DNA of 59,776 nucleotides, from NCBI GenBank assembly GCA_020851235.1, contig JADZDD010000037.1, positions 1-59,776 of the forward strand. Reading direction: 5' to 3'. This document shows, piece by piece, positions 51,937 through 59,617 of this stretch. The notes under the pieces were generated by a model, which was given only the letters and a program-made list of their open reading frames with translations, was not told where the DNA came from and ran no database searches. How positions within the stretch are numbered: position 1 is the first letter of the stretch; the number at the start of each line of letters is the position of its first letter. The position numbers and the translations under genes were made by a program. This DNA is from Burkholderiales bacterium (GTDB lineage: Bacteria > Pseudomonadota > Gammaproteobacteria > Burkholderiales > Casimicrobiaceae).

Positions 51937-53430
51937 GTGTATTACCCGCGCTCCTTCCTCAAGTTCATCCTGTTGGGGTTCCTGCTCGTGAGCCTGCCGC
52001 TCGTGTACGCGCTCGCCGAGCTCCTGCTCTCGCTCGACCGGCTCGCCACGCAAAGCCGTGCCGAGGTGTTGCAGGCATCGCAGGCGGCGCGCTCGTCGCG
52101 CCTGCTGTTCGAGCAGGTCACGACGCTCGAGCGCATCGCGCGTCAGGAGATCATTCTCGAAGATCCTGCACTCATCGAGGATTACGGGCGCTTGCGCCAG
52201 GAGTTCGCGCGGACGACCGAGCAACTCGCGCTGCTGCCGCTCGAGCCGGCACAGCGGGAGAACCTCGACCGCATGCGCGAGCGCGAAGGCGCGCTTTTTG
52301 CGCTGCTGCGCGATGGACAGCGCACGCCCGACCTCGCACGCCGCCTGACCGGGGGTTACGCGACGCTGGTCGAGGAGACGCAGGGGATGCTGAGCGCGAC
52401 CACGCAGCTCACGCAGGGCGCGATCGAGCGCTTGCAGGAGACGGCGTCCGAAGGGCGCGAGAAGTGGCTGTGGCTCGCGCTCGCCTCGGTGGCGATCGCG
52501 CTCGTCCTCGCGCTGACGTTTGCGCTGCTGATCGCACGCCCGATCCGCCAGCTCGACCACGCAGTGCGACAACTGGGCACCGCCGACTTCAAGCACGCGA
52601 TCGAGGTGGGCGGGCCGCAGGACCTGCGCTACCTGGGACAGCGTCTCGAATGGCTGCGCGCGCGGCTGCACGAGCTCGAGCAGCAGCAGACGCGCTTCCT
52701 GCGCCACGTCTCGCACGAGCTCAAGACGCCGCTCACCGCGGTACGCGAAGGCGCCGAGCTCCTGCGCGACAACGTCGGTGGCCGCCTTACCGCCGAGCAG
52801 CAGGAGATCGTGCGTATCGTGCGCGAGAACACGCTGTCGCTGCAAAAGCTCATCGAGGATCTGCTCACGTATCACCAGTCGCGCGCTCTCGAATCGGCGA
52901 CCATCGCGCCGGTGGCGCTGGCCGAACTCGTGCGGCGCGTGCTGCGCGAGCAGAAGCTCGCTGCCTCGGCCCGCGCCATCGACGTCGAGACGACACTGGC
53001 ACCCATCGTCGTCGCGGGCGACCTGGAGCGCATCCGCACCATCGTCGACAACCTGCTGTCGAATGCGATCAAGTATTCGCCACGCTCGGGCGTGATCGAG
53101 ATCGTGCTGACGGCGCAGGAGGGATTTGCGGTACTCGACGTTTCCGATCATGGGCCGGGCATCACGGCCGCCGAGCGCACGCGCGTGTTCGATTCCTTCT
53201 ATGCGGGCAAGCCGCCGCCTGACGGCAAGGTCAAGGGGTCGGGGCTCGGCCTTGCCATCGCCCGCGAGTACGCGCTCGCGCAGTCCGGGCGGCTCGAGGT
53301 GCTCGATCGCGTCGACGGCGCGCAGGGCGTGCGCTTTCGCCTCTTGCTGCCGCTTTCGCTCGGTGCCGCCCGCGCCGCCGACGGCCACGCGGTCGCGCGC
53401 GATCCGGTCACGGTCGGAGATCGCTCGTGA
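51937..53430 (+). CDS. glrK: Sensor histidine kinase GlrK (QseE)
   Basis: 497 residues from a GTG with GAGGG about eight bases ahead; the long frame open upstream is not coding. Two membrane segments (10-30 and 178-200) enclose a helical periplasmic sensor, followed by HAMP (ARPIRQLDHAVRQLGTADF). The phosphoacceptor is His260 in HVSHELKTPLTAV. The ATPase boxes are DNLLSNAIKYSP, DHGPGI and GSGLGLAIA. With the lipoprotein and glrR it forms the glrK-qseG-glrR operon known for envelope stress and GlmY control in enterobacteria. Its stop overlaps the lipoprotein start (GTGA). Confidence 0.94.
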   Translation: MYYPRSFLKFILLGFLLVSLPLVYALAELLLSLDRLATQSRAEVLQASQAARSSRLLFEQVTTLERIARQEIILEDPALIEDYGRLRQEFARTTEQLALLPLEPAQRENLDRMREREGALFALLRDGQRTPDLARRLTGGYATLVEETQGMLSATTQLTQGAIERLQETASEGREKWLWLALASVAIALVLALTFALLIARPIRQLDHAVRQLGTADFKHAIEVGGPQDLRYLGQRLEWLRARLHELEQQQTRFLRHVSHELKTPLTAVREGAELLRDNVGGRLTAEQQEIVRIVRENTLSLQKLIEDLLTYHQSRALESATIAPVALAELVRRVLREQKLAASARAIDVETTLAPIVVAGDLERIRTIVDNLLSNAIKYSPRSGVIEIVLTAQEGFAVLDVSDHGPGITAAERTRVFDSFYAGKPPPDGKVKGSGLGLAIAREYALAQSGRLEVLDRVDGAQGVRFRLLLPLSLGAARAADGHAVARDPVTVGDRS

Positions 53431-54320
53431 GCCAACGTGCGGCGCGCGCGCTCGTCGCGATGGCGGCGTGCCTGTGGCTCGCGGGTTGTGCGGCACCGGG
53501 AAGCGTCGTCGTCATGACGCCGATCGAGGAGCAAGCCCCCGAAGAGGTGCAGGTGCCGTCCCCGCTCGTCGACTATCCGCCGGTCGAACCCGTCGAGCCG
53601 CCGCTCGACATGGCGGAAGTCGAGCCGCCACCCGCGCCGCCGCCAACGGTCAGCGCCGCTTCGCCGGCAGGCGGTGCCGCTTCGCCGGCAGGCGGTGCCG
53701 CGCCGGAGCCGCTACCCGACCCGGCGGCCGCCTCCAGCGTGACGCCGGTGCCGGCCGAGGCGCCGCCGGCGACATTTTCGGCCGCGCCCGCGCCGATCGC
53801 CGCGGCCATCCCGACTCCGGCGCGCGCCGCACCGCCAAGTCCAGCGCCGCCGCCACCGCCACCGCAGGATCAGGAGCTCCTCGCGCTGCTGTCGGACTTG
53901 CAACGCTACGGCAGTCTCGGCAGCGACGACGTGCGGCGCGAGTTGACGAACGCAACGAACGCGCTCGCCCGTCACCGCAGCGATTCCAACCGGATCCGCC
54001 TCGCCGTGCTGTATTCGCTGTCGCGCGGCAACCCGCAGGACGACCAGCGGGCGATCCTGCTCCTCGACAACGTGGTCAAGGGCAACGGCGCCAACGCGGG
54101 CATCAAGGAGCTCGCCATGGTGCTGCACGTGCAGATCACGAGCCGGCAGCGCGCGGTGCGCGACGAGCAACAAAAGGCGGACGCCGCGCTCCAGAAGCTC
54201 GAGGCGCTGCGCGAGATGGAACGCAGCCTCATCCGCGACCGCGTCCGCAGCGGCGGTGGCGGCAGCGGCGGCGGCAGCGGGGGTGGCAGCGGCGGTGGCG
54301 GTGGGGGTGGAGGTGGGTAA
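53427..54320 (+). CDS. qseG: QseG-like outer-membrane lipoprotein between glrK and glrR
   Basis: 297 residues. The lipobox LAGC puts the lipidated Cys at 21. Residues 40-145 are Pro/Ala-rich, containing a duplicated AASPAGG. A helical domain follows (ELLALLSDLQRYGSLGSDDV, RRELTNATNALARHRSDSNR). The C-terminus is a pure Gly/Ser tail. Similarity to E. coli QseG is judged mainly by position, lipobox and the helical domain that QseG uses to control QseE, so the symbol is tentative. Start is GTG, coupled to glrK. Confidence 0.8.
   Translation: MSQRAARALVAMAACLWLAGCAAPGSVVVMTPIEEQAPEEVQVPSPLVDYPPVEPVEPPLDMAEVEPPPAPPPTVSAASPAGGAASPAGGAAPEPLPDPAAASSVTPVPAEAPPATFSAAPAPIAAAIPTPARAAPPSPAPPPPPPQDQELLALLSDLQRYGSLGSDDVRRELTNATNALARHRSDSNRIRLAVLYSLSRGNPQDDQRAILLLDNVVKGNGANAGIKELAMVLHVQITSRQRAVRDEQQKADAALQKLEALREMERSLIRDRVRSGGGGSGGGSGGGSGGGGGGGGG
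53655..53696 (+). repeat. Tandem duplication of a 21-bp unit in the lipoprotein gene
   Basis: Two identical units beginning GCCGCTTCGCCGGCAGGCGG encode AASPAGG twice. In-frame, so repeat number could vary without breaking the protein. Confidence 0.85.
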
Positions 54321-54403: not shown

Positions 54404-55756
54404 ATGTCCAGCGACATCCTTCTCGTCGACGACGATCCCGATCTGCTACGGCTCATCAGCCTGCGCCTGACGTCCGCCGGTTACCGCGTGCGCACCGCGG
54501 AGAGCGCCGAGACGGCGCTTGCGGCCATCGCCGTGCGTCGCCCGGCGGTCGTCGTCACCGACTTGCGCATGCCGGGGATCGACGGCCTGCAGCTCTTCGA
54601 CGCCATCAACCGCCAGCACGCCGGTCTGCCGGTGCTCATCCTGACCGCGCACGGCACGATCCCCGATGCCGTGGCAGCGACGCAGCGCGGCGTGTTCGGC
54701 TTTCTCACAAAGCCGTTCGACAGTCAGGAGTTGCTGCAAAAGGTCGCCTCGGCGCTCAAGCTCGCCGGTGACGACGCCGGCCGCGGCGACGGCGCGCCGG
54801 GCGAATGGCGCGAAGGGATCATCACGCGCAGCGCGGTGATGGAGGACCTCCTGCGCCAGGCGAAGCTCGTCGCCGAATCCGACGCGAGCATCCTCATCTA
54901 CGGCGAATCGGGAACCGGCAAGGAGCTCCTCGCACGCGCGGTGCACCGGGCGAGTCCGCGTCGCGACAAGCCCTTCGTCGCGGTGAACTGCGGCGCGATT
55001 CCGGCCGAGCTCCTGGAGTCCGAGCTCTTCGGCCACGCGCGCGGCGCGTTCACCGGTGCGGTGCAGGCGCACAAGGGACTGTTTCAGGCAGCCGACGGCG
55101 GCACGCTCCTCCTCGACGAGATCGGCGATATGCCGCTTCCCTTGCAGGTGAAGCTCCTGCGCGTGCTGCAGGAGGGCGAGGTGCGCCCGGTCGGCGCGAC
55201 GCAGGCGATCCCCGTCGACGTGCGCGTGATCTCGGCGACGCATCGTGACCTCGATGCGCACAAGGCGTCCGGGCAGTTTCGCGAAGACCTCTACTACCGG
55301 CTCAACGTCGTGTCGCTCAAGCTCCCGTCGCTTGCCGAGCGCCGCGAGGACATTCCGGTGCTTGCCGCGCACTTCCTGCGCAAGCTCGGCGAGCGCTACC
55401 GCAAGCCGACCACCACGCTCGCGCCGGATGCGATGGCGCTGCTCGTCGCCGCGCCCTGGCCCGGGAACGTGCGCCAGCTCTTGAACCTGCTCGAGCAGGC
55501 GCTCGCGCTGACGACGACGTCGGTGATCTCGGCCGCGCTCGTCCAAAGCGCGCTCAAGGAGGACGCGGCCGCGCTCGTCCCCTTCGAGGAGGCGCGCAAG
55601 TCGTTCGAGCGCGACTATCTCGTGCGGCTCCTCAAGATCACCGGCGGCAACGTCACCCAGGCGGCGCAGCTCGCCAAGCGCAATCGCACCGAGTTCTACA
55701 AGCTCTTGCAGCGGCACCGGCTGGAGCCCGCGATGTTCAAGGAACCGAAGACGTAG
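54404..55756 (+). CDS. glrR: Sigma-54-dependent response regulator GlrR
   Basis: 450 residues. The receiver domain has the phosphorylated Asp53 ([10 protein letters not shown]). The AAA+ domain has Walker A GESGTGKE (167-174), the sigma-54 contact loop GAFTGA (214-219) and Walker [12 protein letters not shown] Fis-type helix-turn-helix lies near the C-terminus ([20 protein letters not shown]). GlrR activates sigma-54 promoters from TGTC-N10-GACA sites. Such sites and a sigma-54 promoter stand directly downstream of the gene. Confidence 0.94.
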
Positions 55757-55827: not shown

Positions 55828-55845
55828 TGTCGTCCCGCGACGACA
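55828..55845 (+). promoter_or_regulatory. GlrR-type activator site 1
   Basis: TGTC-GTCCCGCGAC-GACA is an exact TGTC-N10-GACA match, and the inner bases are also symmetric. It is the activator motif described for GlrR upstream of glmY. It lies about 170 bp before the -24 element of the sigma-54 promoter, a normal enhancer distance. Confidence 0.75.
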
Positions 55846-55860
55846 GCCATTTCGTCGCGT

Positions 55861-55873
55861 AATCATCAGCTTA
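55861..55873 (+). promoter_or_regulatory. IHF-like site
   Basis: AATCATCAGCTTA matches the IHF consensus WATCAR-N4-TTR at all but one position. It lies in an AT-rich patch between the two activator sites and the sigma-54 promoter, where bending is needed. Confidence 0.5.
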
Positions 55874-55892
55874 ATGCTTTTGTCATGATTGG

Positions 55893-55910
55893 CGTCGGCG
55901 TTCTGCGACA
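55893..55910 (+). promoter_or_regulatory. GlrR-type activator site 2
   Basis: CGTC-GGCGTTCTGC-GACA, seven of eight conserved positions of TGTC-N10-GACA, 65 bp from site 1, so on a similar face of the helix. Confidence 0.6.
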
Positions 55911-56011
55911 GCCGGCCCGCGACGTGCGTGCCACGGGCGGCGCAGCTTTGCGCAGCGAACGCGGGCGGCTCCCTATGTAGACGGACTCGTTCGCTCTCGT
56001 TGGTCGTCGGA

Positions 56012-56027
56012 TGGCATGGCACTTGCT
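56012..56027 (+). promoter_or_regulatory. Sigma-54 promoter
   Basis: TGGCATG-GCAC-TTGCT fits TGGCACG-N4-TTGCW with a single C-to-T change and exact -24/-12 spacing. Transcription should begin near 56038. Confidence 0.8.
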
Positions 56028-56079
56028 ATGCCTTGGATGTCTCCCTGCGCTGACGCGCTGCCAAACTCAGGACGCCCCG

Positions 56080-56241
56080 ATGGACATGCTCGCTCCGGAA
56101 TTCGCCAGGCACTGGCTCGCCGATCACGCGGAGGACGCGGCGGCGCCGGTCGAGTCGAAGGCGGCGGTCGACGAGGCAAGCGAGGAGGCGGCCCTCGAAG
56201 ATCTCGCCGAGCGCGTGCAGGCGGCGCGTCTCGTGCGCTAG
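56080..56241 (+). CDS. 53-residue acidic small protein, unrecognised
   Basis: ATG with AGGA eight bases upstream, inside the predicted sigma-54 transcript. The protein begins MDMLAPEFARHWLADHAEDA and is rich in Ala and Glu, predicted helical, with no membrane segment or cysteine. I recognise no family. It could be a true microprotein or an incidental frame within a regulatory RNA. The same frame extends upstream, but its earlier ATG (56011) overlaps the promoter and could not be transcribed from it. Confidence 0.45.
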   Translation: MDMLAPEFARHWLADHAEDAAAPVESKAAVDEASEEAALEDLAERVQAARLVR

Positions 56242-56338
56242 TCGCAAGCGTTCGCTGAATTTCGCAAGACGCCACCGGACGGCGCAAGGTCCGGGTCCCG
56301 CGGAGTGGGCCAATGCTCCGGTCATCGGAATCCCCCTT

Positions 56339-56372
56339 GCCCGCTACATTTCCTCCCGGCGGGCTTTTTTTT
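56339..56372 (+). terminator. Intrinsic terminator with eight-T run
   Basis: GCCCGC and GCGGGC form a stem across a 14-base loop, followed by TTTTTTTT. It would end the sigma-54 transcript at about 335 nt, roughly 130 nt after the small ORF. Confidence 0.8.
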
Positions 56373-57328: not shown

Positions 57329-57378
57329 CCCGAGTTCAGCCGACCCCGTAGGCGGACGGCCGCGACGAACAGTTAGAC
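57329..57378 (-). repeat. Truncated attC site of the SnoaL cassette
   Basis: On the minus strand GTCTAAC (57372-57378) is a perfect first core box and contains the TAA stop of the gene. About 40 bases later CGGCTGAAC resembles the inner box, but no GTTRRRY follows, so the distal end is lost. This looks like the old left end of the array. Confidence 0.6.
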
Positions 57379-57789
57379 TGCACTGTGGCCAAGCTGCTTG
57401 AGCCCAGCAAGGTTGTCCCACTCGGCCCATGCCTCAACGATGCGCCCGTTCTCGAGACGGTAGATCGCGAGATAGGTGGCTTCAAGCACCTTTTCCGACG
57501 GCGGGAACTGACCCATGGGACCAAGCTGTGTGCCACGAAACAGATGGCGTGCGGCAACCTTGTCTCCCTCCGCCACGAGGTCGAGCAGAGTTTCGTGGGC
57601 GTCGGGAAACGTTGCGTACTCCGCCACCAGGAAAGCAACAAGATCCTCAGCCGAACGAACACCCGGTTCGCCGGCGGCGACGCTGTGACGCCTGAACTCG
57701 GGAGCAAGAACAGCGTGGAGGCGAGCCCAGTCTTTCGCATTGATCGCCTCAACGAAGGCGCGGACGACGGACTTGCTGTCTACCTGCAT
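57373..57789 (-). CDS. SnoaL-like / ester-cyclase family protein (cassette gene)
   Basis: 138 residues. VVRAFVEAINAKDWARLHAV, LAPEFRRHS, TFPDAHETLLDLVAEGDKVA, FRGTQLG and RIVEAWAEWDNLAGLKQLG are the SnoaL-like polyketide cyclase (PF07366) pattern, an NTF2-type cone fold with a His/Asp acid-base pair. These small cytosolic proteins often have unknown substrates. The TAA stop lies in its attC core box. Codon use is less GC-rich than in the neighbouring chromosome. Confidence 0.85.
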   Translation of the reverse strand: MQVDSKSVVRAFVEAINAKDWARLHAVLAPEFRRHSVAAGEPGVRSAEDLVAFLVAEYATFPDAHETLLDLVAEGDKVAARHLFRGTQLGPMGQFPPSEKVLEATYLAIYRLENGRIVEAWAEWDNLAGLKQLGHSAV

Positions 57790-57813
57790 GGATGCGCTGA
57801 CGTGGATTGTGCC

Positions 57814-57903
57814 GCGTAACGTTCAGCGTGAGCGGCGCGCCACCACCGAAGTGACGAGCAAGAAGCCGCGCGTCGGCGCGTCCGCTCGAACCCGAGGTCA
57901 GGC
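57814..57903 (-). repeat. attC site of the DUF4160/DUF2442 cassette
   Basis: 90 bp. On the minus strand it opens GCCTGAC, then GTTCGAGCGGACGC, and closes with CCGCTCACGCTGAAC followed by GTTACGC. The inner boxes pair with each other, as needed for the folded recombination substrate. The TGA of the DUF2442 gene is within the first box. Confidence 0.75.
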
Positions 57904-58143
57904 GGCAACTTGAAGAGCCGAGCGTAGAAACCCAGGGGCGAAGTCGGCGCCATTCGGCCACACCAACGTACGCAACTCCGGATGAAGTACGAATTGCCGA
58001 AATGCCTCAACGCTTCGCAACGGTTCAAGTATGGGGCCATGCAATTCGTCGGAAAGGTCCAGCTCACCCTCGGCTCCATCAGTGAAACGCAGCCAGATAG
58101 TGTGGCCGGAGACATGCCGAGCTTCAATGACATGCGGCAACAT
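57898..58143 (-). CDS. DUF2442 domain protein (cassette gene)
   Basis: 81 residues from an ATG with GGAG eight bases ahead; a GTG three codons earlier overlaps the stop of the DUF4160 pseudogene. VIEARHVSGHTIWLRFTDGA, EGELDLSDEL and GADFAPGF-type (WPNGADFAP) match the DUF2442 family. DUF2442 is usually encoded with DUF4160, and the pair is often listed with toxin-antitoxin-like modules, without firm proof. Here its partner is broken. Confidence 0.85.
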   Translation of the reverse strand: MLPHVIEARHVSGHTIWLRFTDGAEGELDLSDELHGPILEPLRSVEAFRQFVLHPELRTLVWPNGADFAPGFLRSALQVAA

Positions 58144-58148
58144 GGAGG

Positions 58149-58405
58149 TCACTCCAGTGGTTCAATGCGCGGCAACGGCCGGCTGGCACGTGCCAATGGC
58201 CAAGCTTGAAGAAGTTCGATCCGATGCAAATCCTTCCACTCGAGCACGTGAGACAACGCGCGTTGCGGAAAGTCGCCATTCACTCGACCGACTCGATCTC
58301 CACTGTGATCTCGAAGTCGCCGTAAATCGCGTGGAAATGCGCAGGTCTGTGATCGCGGTAACACATGGCAATGACAATACCGAGGAAGCGGCTCAGTTCA
58401 GGCAT
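58149..58405 (-). pseudogene. DUF4160 gene broken by a one-base deletion
   Basis: The frame begins MPELSRFLGIVIAMCYRDHR, the family's N-terminus, and runs through RPAHFHAIYGDFEITVEIES before stopping at 58280-58282. The family's second half (NGDFPQRALSHVLEWKDLHR through PRIEPLE) continues in the next frame to a TGA beside the DUF2442 start. One added base at about 58282 restores an unbroken protein of normal length. A sequencing error or programmed frameshift are the alternatives. Confidence 0.75.
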
Positions 58406-58441
58406 GCATCATTGTAGTGCCGAAGGCTTGGTCTCGTTGAC

Positions 58442-58567
58442 GTCTAACGTACGAGGTGGCCAGCGCGCGAGGGCGGACGGTCATGCCCGCGCGGAACATC
58501 ATGGACCTATGCGCCGTCCCGGCATGGCTGGCTGCCGTAGTGCGTCCGGTTGAACGACATGTTAGGC
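58442..58567 (-). repeat. attC site of the GNAT cassette
   Basis: 126 bp. On the minus strand it opens GCCTAAC, then GTTCAACCGGACGC, and closes with GTTAGAC. Both outer boxes fit RYYYAAC/GTTRRRY exactly. The TAA of the GNAT gene is in the first box. Confidence 0.85.
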
Positions 58568-59005
58568 CTCAGCCCTTGCCGCGCCGAGTTGCTTGACCAT
58601 GTGGTACTTGACGATGCCGTGCGGAAGCCCGCGACGGACGTACTCAGCGCGGTAGCCAAGCCGCTCGTAGAGCTGCGGAGCTTGAAAGCTGAACGTCTCC
58701 AAGTAGCAGGAAGTGCAGCCATGGCGCCGCGCGCTGATCTCGAACTCGGTGATCAACGCCGCGCCGAGGCCTTGCCCCCGATGCGCCTCTGCGACCCAGA
58801 GTTGCTGCAGCTCGTAGTTGCTACCCCACCAGCGACCGATGGCACCCCCGAGCAGCTGGCCGCAGTCGTCGTGCGCGAAGCACGAGAGGAGCCGTACTTC
58901 GTGCAAGGGTGCAGCGCGGTCGTTGAACTGACCCAGGCCGAGATCAACGGCGCGCGATTCTTGGTCCGGGTGGCTGTCGTGGTTGCTGAGCCTGAACGTG
59001 ACCAT
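58562..59005 (-). CDS. GNAT-family N-acetyltransferase (cassette gene)
   Basis: 147 residues. GQLLGGAIGRWWGSNYELQQ, then LWVAEAHRGQGLGAALITEF, the acetyl-CoA loop (R-G-Q-G-L-G), and FQAPQLYERLGYRAEYVRRG place it among GNAT enzymes. The aromatic LWV pattern resembles cassette acetyltransferases that modify small molecules or antibiotics, but the substrate cannot be read. Complete, with an ATG start. Confidence 0.9.
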   Translation of the reverse strand: MVTFRLSNHDSHPDQESRAVDLGLGQFNDRAAPLHEVRLLSCFAHDDCGQLLGGAIGRWWGSNYELQQLWVAEAHRGQGLGAALITEFEISARRHGCTSCYLETFSFQAPQLYERLGYRAEYVRRGLPHGIVKYHMVKQLGAARAEA

Positions 59006-59019
59006 GCGCGGTCCTTGAG

Positions 59020-59100
59020 GCCTAGCGCGAAAGGTGGCCGGCGCGCGCGAGGCGGGCGAAGCCTCGCCGGGGTGCGTCCGCGTTGACCGCAGGGTTAGCC
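59020..59100 (-). repeat. attC site of the DUF433/DUF5615 cassette
   Basis: 81 bp. On the minus strand it opens GGCTAAC, then GGTCAACGCGGACGC, and closes with GCTAGGC, one base from GTTAGGC. An inner GGCGAGGCTTCGCC hairpin is present. The TAA of the PIN-like gene is in the first box. Confidence 0.75.
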
Positions 59101-59415
59101 TTCACAGCGCAGAAGTGTCTTCGGCTCAAGTCCATCGAGGCGACCGACGAGTTCTTGGGCCGGTGCAAGCAGCGACTGAAATCGATTGTCTCGTGCCACC
59201 AGGACAGCGATAGCCAGTGGCAAGGCGCCAAGATTCTGCTGGTACTGCAGGTTCTGGTCGGCAGTGACAAAGACGTCGAACTGCTCCGCTGCCACCCGAA
59301 GCAATTCACCGTTCTTGAGACCGGACCAGCCTGCCTCGACCACCGTGACAACATCGTGACCAGAGAACGCACCTCGCAGGCGACGGGGCAACGACTCGTC
59401 AAGAAGTATGCGCAT
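59095..59415 (-). CDS. DUF5615 PIN-like protein, putative toxin (cassette gene)
   Basis: 106 residues. MRILLDESLPRRLRGAFSGH with the first catalytic Asp, VVEAGWSGLKNGELLRVAAE, and FVTADQNLQYQQNL match the DUF5615 PIN-like family, relatives of VapC RNases. Probably the toxin partner of the DUF433 protein encoded 17 bp in overlap upstream. Such pairs are common in cassette arrays and may stabilise them. Activity is inferred only. Confidence 0.85.
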   Translation of the reverse strand: MRILLDESLPRRLRGAFSGHDVVTVVEAGWSGLKNGELLRVAAEQFDVFVTADQNLQYQQNLGALPLAIAVLVARDNRFQSLLAPAQELVGRLDGLEPKTLLRCEG

Positions 59416-59617
59416 GCGGTATCACCGCTTCACGCGCTTGCTCCAAGACGGCAACGGCGACTTCACGGGCAACACTGGGAAAGTCGCTCAGGAACTGATC
59501 CAGAGACTCACCTGCCTCGAGATAGTCGAAGAGGTTCTTCACGGGCACGCGCGTTTGCGCGAACACTGGCGTGCCCCCCTGAATCTGTGGATCAACCGCA
59601 ATGAGTTCCCGGCCCAT
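59399..59617 (-). CDS. DUF433 protein, putative antitoxin (cassette gene)
   Basis: 72 residues, the usual DUF433 size. IAVDPQIQGGTPVFAQTRVP, VKNLFDYLEAGESLDQFLSD and FPSVAREVAVAVLEQA are the family pattern, a VapB-like helix-turn-helix. It precedes and overlaps the DUF5615 gene, the normal antitoxin-first order. The ATG lies about 30 bases inside the cassette start. Confidence 0.88.
   Translation of the reverse strand: MGRELIAVDPQIQGGTPVFAQTRVPVKNLFDYLEAGESLDQFLSDFPSVAREVAVAVLEQAREAVIPHAHTS

Follow-up and report, generated by a model that had tools for sequence, protein, structure and literature searches.

The well-known RNA output of the response regulator GlrR is the enterobacterial GlmY. 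The DNA considered here, a stretch of 59,776 nucleotides from a Burkholderiales bacterium of the family Casimicrobiaceae (GenBank assembly GCA_020851235.1, contig JADZDD010000037.1, forward strand; called the window below), carries a short unit directly downstream of a glrR-like gene, and the question it raises is what this unit delivers. A first-pass annotation had offered two answers: the unit might be the betaproteobacterial equivalent of GlmY, or it might give the GlrKR system a new output in the form of a small protein. The reading preferred here, to which we give a probability of about 0.68, is that GlrR and sigma-54 would drive an RNA with two roles, which serves as the mRNA of a microprotein and also carries a 3′ anti-Shine-Dalgarno (anti-SD) small RNA. 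Both kinds of output are thus favoured in one transcript, in the form of a selected protein and a conserved anti-SD element, and what falls away from the earlier proposal is homology to GlmY.

The genes that precede the unit are all encoded on the plus strand. A sensor kinase with HAMP, HisKA, and HATPase_c matches occupies the glrK position (51961-53430; the frame is read from 51961 and the start is provisional). It is followed in the qseG position by a lipoprotein-like ORF (53427-54320) with a lipobox seen by eye, for which searches of Pfam and NCBIfam gave zero matches. Its C-terminal tail is glycine-rich (window positions 54250-54317, GGGGSGGGSGGGSGGGG...). The third gene (54404-55756) encodes a sigma-54 response regulator with Response_reg and Sigma54_activat domains. 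Its earlier naming as glrR agrees with the top NCBIfam match, GlrR (NF011695, best of 126 families), which reaches 637.9 bits and stays under the model cut-off of 763; the gene order and the sites at the locus are consistent with the GlrR identity. The genome also encodes a second GlrR-like regulator (L046, C15:10608-11921) that is 58% identical to GlrR. On the minus strand of the window (57373-59617), a row of small ORFs is found that look, by eye, like an acetyltransferase and like pairs of the toxin-antitoxin type.

The control region begins with an exact TGTC-N10-GACA site (55828-55845, site 1) that is followed 65 bp later by a second copy matching at seven of eight positions (CGTC-N10-GACA, 55893-55910, site 2). 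Between them lies an IHF-like site (AATCATCAGCTTA, 55861-55873) that matches eight of nine positions of the IHF consensus. A sigma-54 promoter of the form TGGCATG-N4-TTGCT (TGGCATGGCACTTGCT, 56012-56027) scores 10.5 out of 11 against a rough consensus built for this analysis and has a predicted start near 56038. A weak Shine-Dalgarno sequence, AGGA (56069-56072), precedes the ATG at 56080 of a 53-codon ORF (56080-56241). All of these elements had been named in the first-pass annotation, and each was recovered at its stated place on the plus strand. The 3.93-Mb genome has a single site pair with a gap of similar length and no instance of the pattern in reverse, which served as control. Because the pair is unique in the genome and the whole array is kept at near-constant spacing in relatives, the array as read from the DNA is more than chance.

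The conservation in relatives, which had been proposed as a check, is found as follows. A GlrR search covered 61 genomes, all of which matched when paralogues are counted, and the comparison used the 33 family loci that have an orthologue. In 28 of them, the unit follows glrR directly. The spacing of the two sites is 65 bp in 25 of these 28 units and 64, 66, or 67 bp in the remaining three, and the distance from site 1 to the start of the promoter is 177-204 bp. Of the IHF-like matches in the interval between the sites, the best one sits at offset 15-16 in 25/28 loci and reaches eight of nine positions in 21/28, with a mean of 7.75 versus 6.25 for shuffled segments. At L019 both sites are seen before the contig breaks off 221 bp past glrR; at L026 the unit lies about 5 kb further on from glrR (as seen in L190), and at L029, L030, and L032, which belong to the genus g2, it does not adjoin glrR. 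A midpoint-rooted GlrR tree with 57 rows places the family in one clade (support 100/98), in which the genus g6 is sister to the rest (94/98). The nearest neighbor of the family is an f11 genome, with modest support (94/75).

The site pair itself is not restricted to this unit. Among 300 genomes of the order, 45 carry such a pair, compared with two for the reversed control, and a sigma-54-like promoter follows the pair in 46 of the 50 loci examined, often ahead of genes unrelated to the unit. The pair was therefore rejected as a signature of GlrR only, and the TGTC-N10-GACA motif may be common to paralogous activators. Since the pair is found at other promoters, the assignment of GlrR as activator of the unit rests on adjacency. 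In place of GlrR, the unit could be driven by a different sigma-54 activator with the same motif, for instance the paralogue encoded in the same genome, and the promoters before unrelated genes as well as the 58% identity of that paralogue speak for such a case. We regard it as improbable, as the unit adjoins glrR in most family loci and the inspected region downstream of the paralogue L046 is without a comparable array.

Two side observations concern these sites elsewhere. At L138, L143, L145, L151, and other loci, TGTC-N10-GACA pairs about 65 bp apart stand with sigma-54 promoters before unrelated genes, some of which look exopolysaccharide-like by eye. In named betaproteobacteria (L230, L232-L237, L241, L252, L258, L267, and L268), a similar site and a sigma-54 promoter frequently accompany the gene that follows glrR. 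This gene varies by clade and is by eye BON-domain-like, OpgG/OpgH-like, or EF-hand-like; the target adjoining GlrR seems to be swapped between clades.

The first product of the transcript is the 53-residue protein. Its family follows the consensus MDxFxPEFxxxWL...ALEELAERVxAARSVx (25 rows) and is present in 45/64 genomes of the bacterial family (0/11 in g6, 13/17 in g2, and 32/36 in the rest). In 250 genomes drawn from the order, the search matched nine, of which six belong to this family; the three outside it (E 0.0013-0.0051) are weak, lie within longer reading frames, and were set aside. dN is lower than dS in all of 12 hand-chosen pairs, some of which share a member; the ratios lie between about 0.1 and 0.7. 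Five members were checked for charge, and all are acidic (pI 4.05-4.84). The window protein finds no match in Pfam or NCBIfam at E<=1, and a single-sequence AlphaFold2 model places helices at residues 5-15 and 32-52 (mean pLDDT 75.9, pTM 0.42). Judged by its conservation and substitution pattern, the ORF is a real, family-restricted microprotein under purifying selection.

The second product is expected from the 3′ end of the transcript. After the stop codon, two hairpins are predicted (56248-56316 and 56317-56329), followed by a conserved CCCCCUU that is predicted to be single-stranded (56332-56338), a terminator hairpin (56339-56364), and a run of eight Ts at the predicted 3′ end (56365-56372). 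The loop of the terminator (56345-56358) holds the anti-SD sequence UUCCUCCC (56350-56357) and reads UUCCUCC(C); CCUCC is the core of the ribosome’s anti-Shine-Dalgarno. In an alignment of 24 transcripts, the 3′ end is the most conserved part, and it has the order CCCCCUU, GCCCGC, a loop with UCCUCC or a close variant, GCGGGC, and a U-run. Since conservation along the transcript is highest in the loop and the bases that precede it, the hairpin with eight Ts reported by the first-pass annotation is present and is more than a terminator, the conserved loop having been overlooked.

A model of the 24 members matched the 3′ element in 37/64 family genomes at E<=1.6e-5, not counting weaker matches of E 0.0026 and above. 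The 24 are matched by construction, so 13 are new. glrR lies within 1.5 kb of 28 of the 30 element loci inspected; no glrR is seen in the remaining two, whose stretches are truncated by contig ends. Across 27 members, the loop is predicted to be unpaired with a mean of 0.96 and CCCCCUU with a mean of 0.81; the lowest values, 0.43 for the loop (L005) and 0.40 for CCCCCUU (L015), denote partial pairing. Anti-SD-type loops occur in one of 119 comparison terminators (three sets not chosen by the model). Over the loci collected, they occur in 30 of 181 distinct terminators (22 family units, five membrane-protein units, and three others, two of which had been retrieved by the 3′-element model itself). 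In the main form, the stem of the terminator shows variation at a single pair, confined to two rows from the same genus. The RNA of the window shows no extra stability relative to shuffled sequences (z +2.14 for the whole and -0.19 for the 3′ part), and fold stability was discarded as evidence for it. By its conservation and predicted accessibility, the 3′ element is a conserved anti-SD sequence that should stand unpaired in a hairpin loop, as in anti-SD small RNAs as a functional class.

An alternative account would take the unit as an ordinary GlrR/sigma-54 mRNA for the microprotein, with a 3′ hairpin that is merely its terminator and a loop kept for termination or stability. The 3′ element does end in a canonical terminator, dN<dS indicates that the protein matters, and one family genome (G017) has the ORF and lacks the anti-SD hairpin. 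Against this account stands the conservation of the loop beyond what a terminator needs, given its rarity among the comparison terminators, together with the two genera g6 and g2, in which element and ORF, or element and terminator, come apart. We consider it rather unlikely, and the dual-function RNA is preferred.

In g6, the 3′ element is found in seven of 11 genomes. All seven have a sigma-54 promoter ahead of the element and none has the microprotein; the predicted RNA measures about 100-210 nt and carries the stem GCCCACC/GGUGGGC. In g2, the unit is relocated, and all 13 ORF-bearing members have the site pair and a sigma-54-like promoter. In each of them a 12-bp hairpin with the loop UUUUCCUCCCCCGGU stands right after the stop codon, with L352 differing by one base. 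A short-loop terminator comes after this anti-SD hairpin in 11 of 13 stretches, and the other two stretches end before that point; the loop is thus borne by a hairpin that is not the terminator. The stem pairs in 96/96 cells of eight distinct rows and has compensatory changes at three of its 12 pairs, a result matched by six of 500 shuffles. Two g2 RNAs (z -5.48 and -5.87) and one g6 RNA (z -4.20) fold more stably than their shuffles. Read from these genomes and folds, the anti-SD hairpin outlives the loss of the ORF in g6, and in g2, where the unit has moved, the loop is borne by a different stem. As g6 has the RNA element without the protein and g2 has both at a new site with a new hairpin, the two functions are separable for testing.

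The anti-SD loop could also act in cis on the microprotein’s own ribosome site, which would account for a loop that is tied to an mRNA. In 24 members, however, the longest complementarity to that site averages 4.6 nt versus 4.5 nt for shuffles, which is no more than chance, and the element persists in g6 without the ORF. Pairing in cis was rejected, and a cis role is very improbable. Feedback of the RNA on the ribosome site of glrR was likewise rejected, as no conserved pairing is seen: 22 of the 25 loci tried gave a start, and the longest complementarity is at most 6 nt in 21 loci and 8 nt in L021.

For the preferred dual-function RNA, the following course is proposed. The adjoining unit would be a direct target of the GlrK/GlrR pair, and the trigger would presumably be that of the pair, which in enterobacteria is an envelope signal. 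GlrR would bind the two sites 65 bp apart while IHF bends the DNA between them, and would open the sigma-54 polymerase at 56012-56027. The resulting transcript of about 335 nt would have a dual function. Its 5′ part would encode the family-specific acidic microprotein of 53 residues, and its 3′ part (about 56242-56372) would act either within the full RNA or, after release by RNase E, as an Hfq-type small RNA; an Hfq gene is present in the genome. CCCCCUU and the UUCCUCC(C) loop would pair with Shine-Dalgarno regions of target mRNAs and block their translation. Because the hairpin mimics the sequence with which the ribosome reads mRNAs, it could shut down other genes. The action predicted is such direct pairing to ribosome-binding sites and not that of a decoy for RapZ, although RapZ is encoded in the genome and might therefore play a role.

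How does this unit compare with known systems? In enterobacteria, the cited passages describe a GlrR-type regulator (QseE/QseF = GlrK/GlrR), IHF, and a sigma-54 promoter that drive GlmY beside the regulator genes (PMC6075780, PMC8745638). The unit resembles GlmY at the sequence level in the GlrR sites, the sigma-54 promoter, and the IHF-like site before it. GlmY, however, lies before the kinase gene and sequesters RapZ, whereas the window unit lies after glrR and has an ORF and an anti-SD loop. In an Rfam search over the window, the one hit to reach its gathering score is a tRNA located away from the unit, and GlmY/GlmZ are absent from the E<=10 Rfam lists for the window unit and a g6 relative (L027). 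As neither Rfam model matches the unit, homology to GlmY/GlmZ was rejected; the control logic read from the DNA would be that of GlmY, and descent from GlmY is not supported.

The CcsR RNAs of alphaproteobacteria have loops with C/U-rich anti-SD sequences. They come from the CIN1 locus, for which the cited passages report a stress-induced small-protein mRNA (ccaF1) whose 3′ UTR yields the CcsR small RNAs (PMC8625941, PMC10253847). The window unit, in which a small-protein ORF is followed by a conserved anti-SD element that may be released as a 3′ small RNA, is reminiscent of CIN1 of Rhodobacter. They differ in that CcaF1 is a DUF1127 RNA-binding protein, the promoter is of the RpoHI/RpoHII kind, and four tandem RNAs are made, whereas the window unit has an acidic protein without a Pfam match at E<=1, including DUF1127, a sigma-54-type promoter, and one RNA. 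GlnZ is under NtrC/sigma-54 control. It is released, according to the cited passages, from the 3′ UTR of the regulated glnA mRNA (PMC9731577). GlnZ thus parallels the 3′ release that is predicted for the window unit and differs in that its parent gene encodes a metabolic enzyme. We know of no anti-SD loop in GlnZ.

Anti-SD RNAs proper were compared as well. The betaproteobacterial toxic sRNA family RF02278 (bdhR1, ncS27) and Bordetella S17 are portrayed in the cited passages as short RNAs whose unpaired C/U-rich segments show complementarity to ribosome sites (PMC5688073, PMC11722255). In the RF02278 copies inspected, the anti-SD loop sits on a hairpin before a plain terminator, whereas in the window unit the terminator hairpin bears the loop; an order of two hairpins does occur in g2. 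The RF02278 covariance model does not list the unit at E<=10 and has no match in the window’s own genome, and membership was rejected. RF02278 exceeds its cut-off in three of 18 genomes, in no case at the unit, and copies below the cut-off are seen in the family genomes G007, G015, G024, and G034 (L345-L348), again elsewhere than the unit. For the alpha-r14/cuckoo RNAs (NfeR1) and the Neisseria NmsR siblings, the cited passages describe an anti-SD motif conserved in loops on varying stems (PMC10746234) and repression through anti-SD sequences (PMC5362039, PMC9973317). Their control differs from that of the unit, and a microprotein ORF is not among the features described for them in those passages; the alpha-r14 model (RF02344, ar14) gives the window unit 14.2 bits, below its gathering threshold of 58.8. 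As judged by these models, the unit falls outside every RNA family tested. Its upstream part resembles GlmY (regulator, IHF, and sigma-54) and its downstream part the anti-SD RNAs NmsR, alpha-r14, RF02278, and S17. The titles and abstract openings of the open-licence literature searched do not describe it.

Similar loops are found beyond the family. In the families f11, f12, f24, and f48, a membrane protein is encoded by the gene that follows glrR or such sites, and the terminator of this mRNA has a loop of the CCUCC type. The protein is of the glycine-zipper kind in f12 and f48, while those of f11 and f24 resemble its N-terminal and CxxCG parts by eye. Outside the family, four of nine glrR-linked membrane-protein mRNAs with a detectable terminator have the anti-SD loop (L310, L312, L033, and L034) and five are without it (L316, L318, L336, L338, and L339), compared with none of five unlinked homologues with a terminator and one of the 119 comparison terminators. 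L313 has the loop, the sites, and the promoter, with no glrR within its available stretch. Among named relatives (26 loci), similar sites are frequent downstream of glrR, together with other genes and no anti-SD loop, and the RNA is therefore not universal. We tentatively suggest, at somewhat less than even odds, that in part of the Betaproteobacteria an RNA output of GlrK/GlrR is a 3′ anti-SD hairpin of a GlrR-driven mRNA beside glrR, an independent counterpart of the GlrR-GlmY pair that acts by Shine-Dalgarno mimicry. The coding parts that carry the hairpin would then be unrelated, namely a glycine-zipper-kind membrane protein or relative in four families, the microprotein in this family, and none in g6. 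As the hairpin would ride on unrelated coding parts, the RNA, not the protein, would be the constant output.

If true, this would be a second, unrelated RNA output of GlrR in another group of bacteria, and an envelope regulator would have been coupled to riboregulation more than once and by a different mechanism. The unit would also provide a clean case of a dual-function RNA, as g6 has the RNA element alone and g2 has both parts relocated with the loop on a new hairpin.
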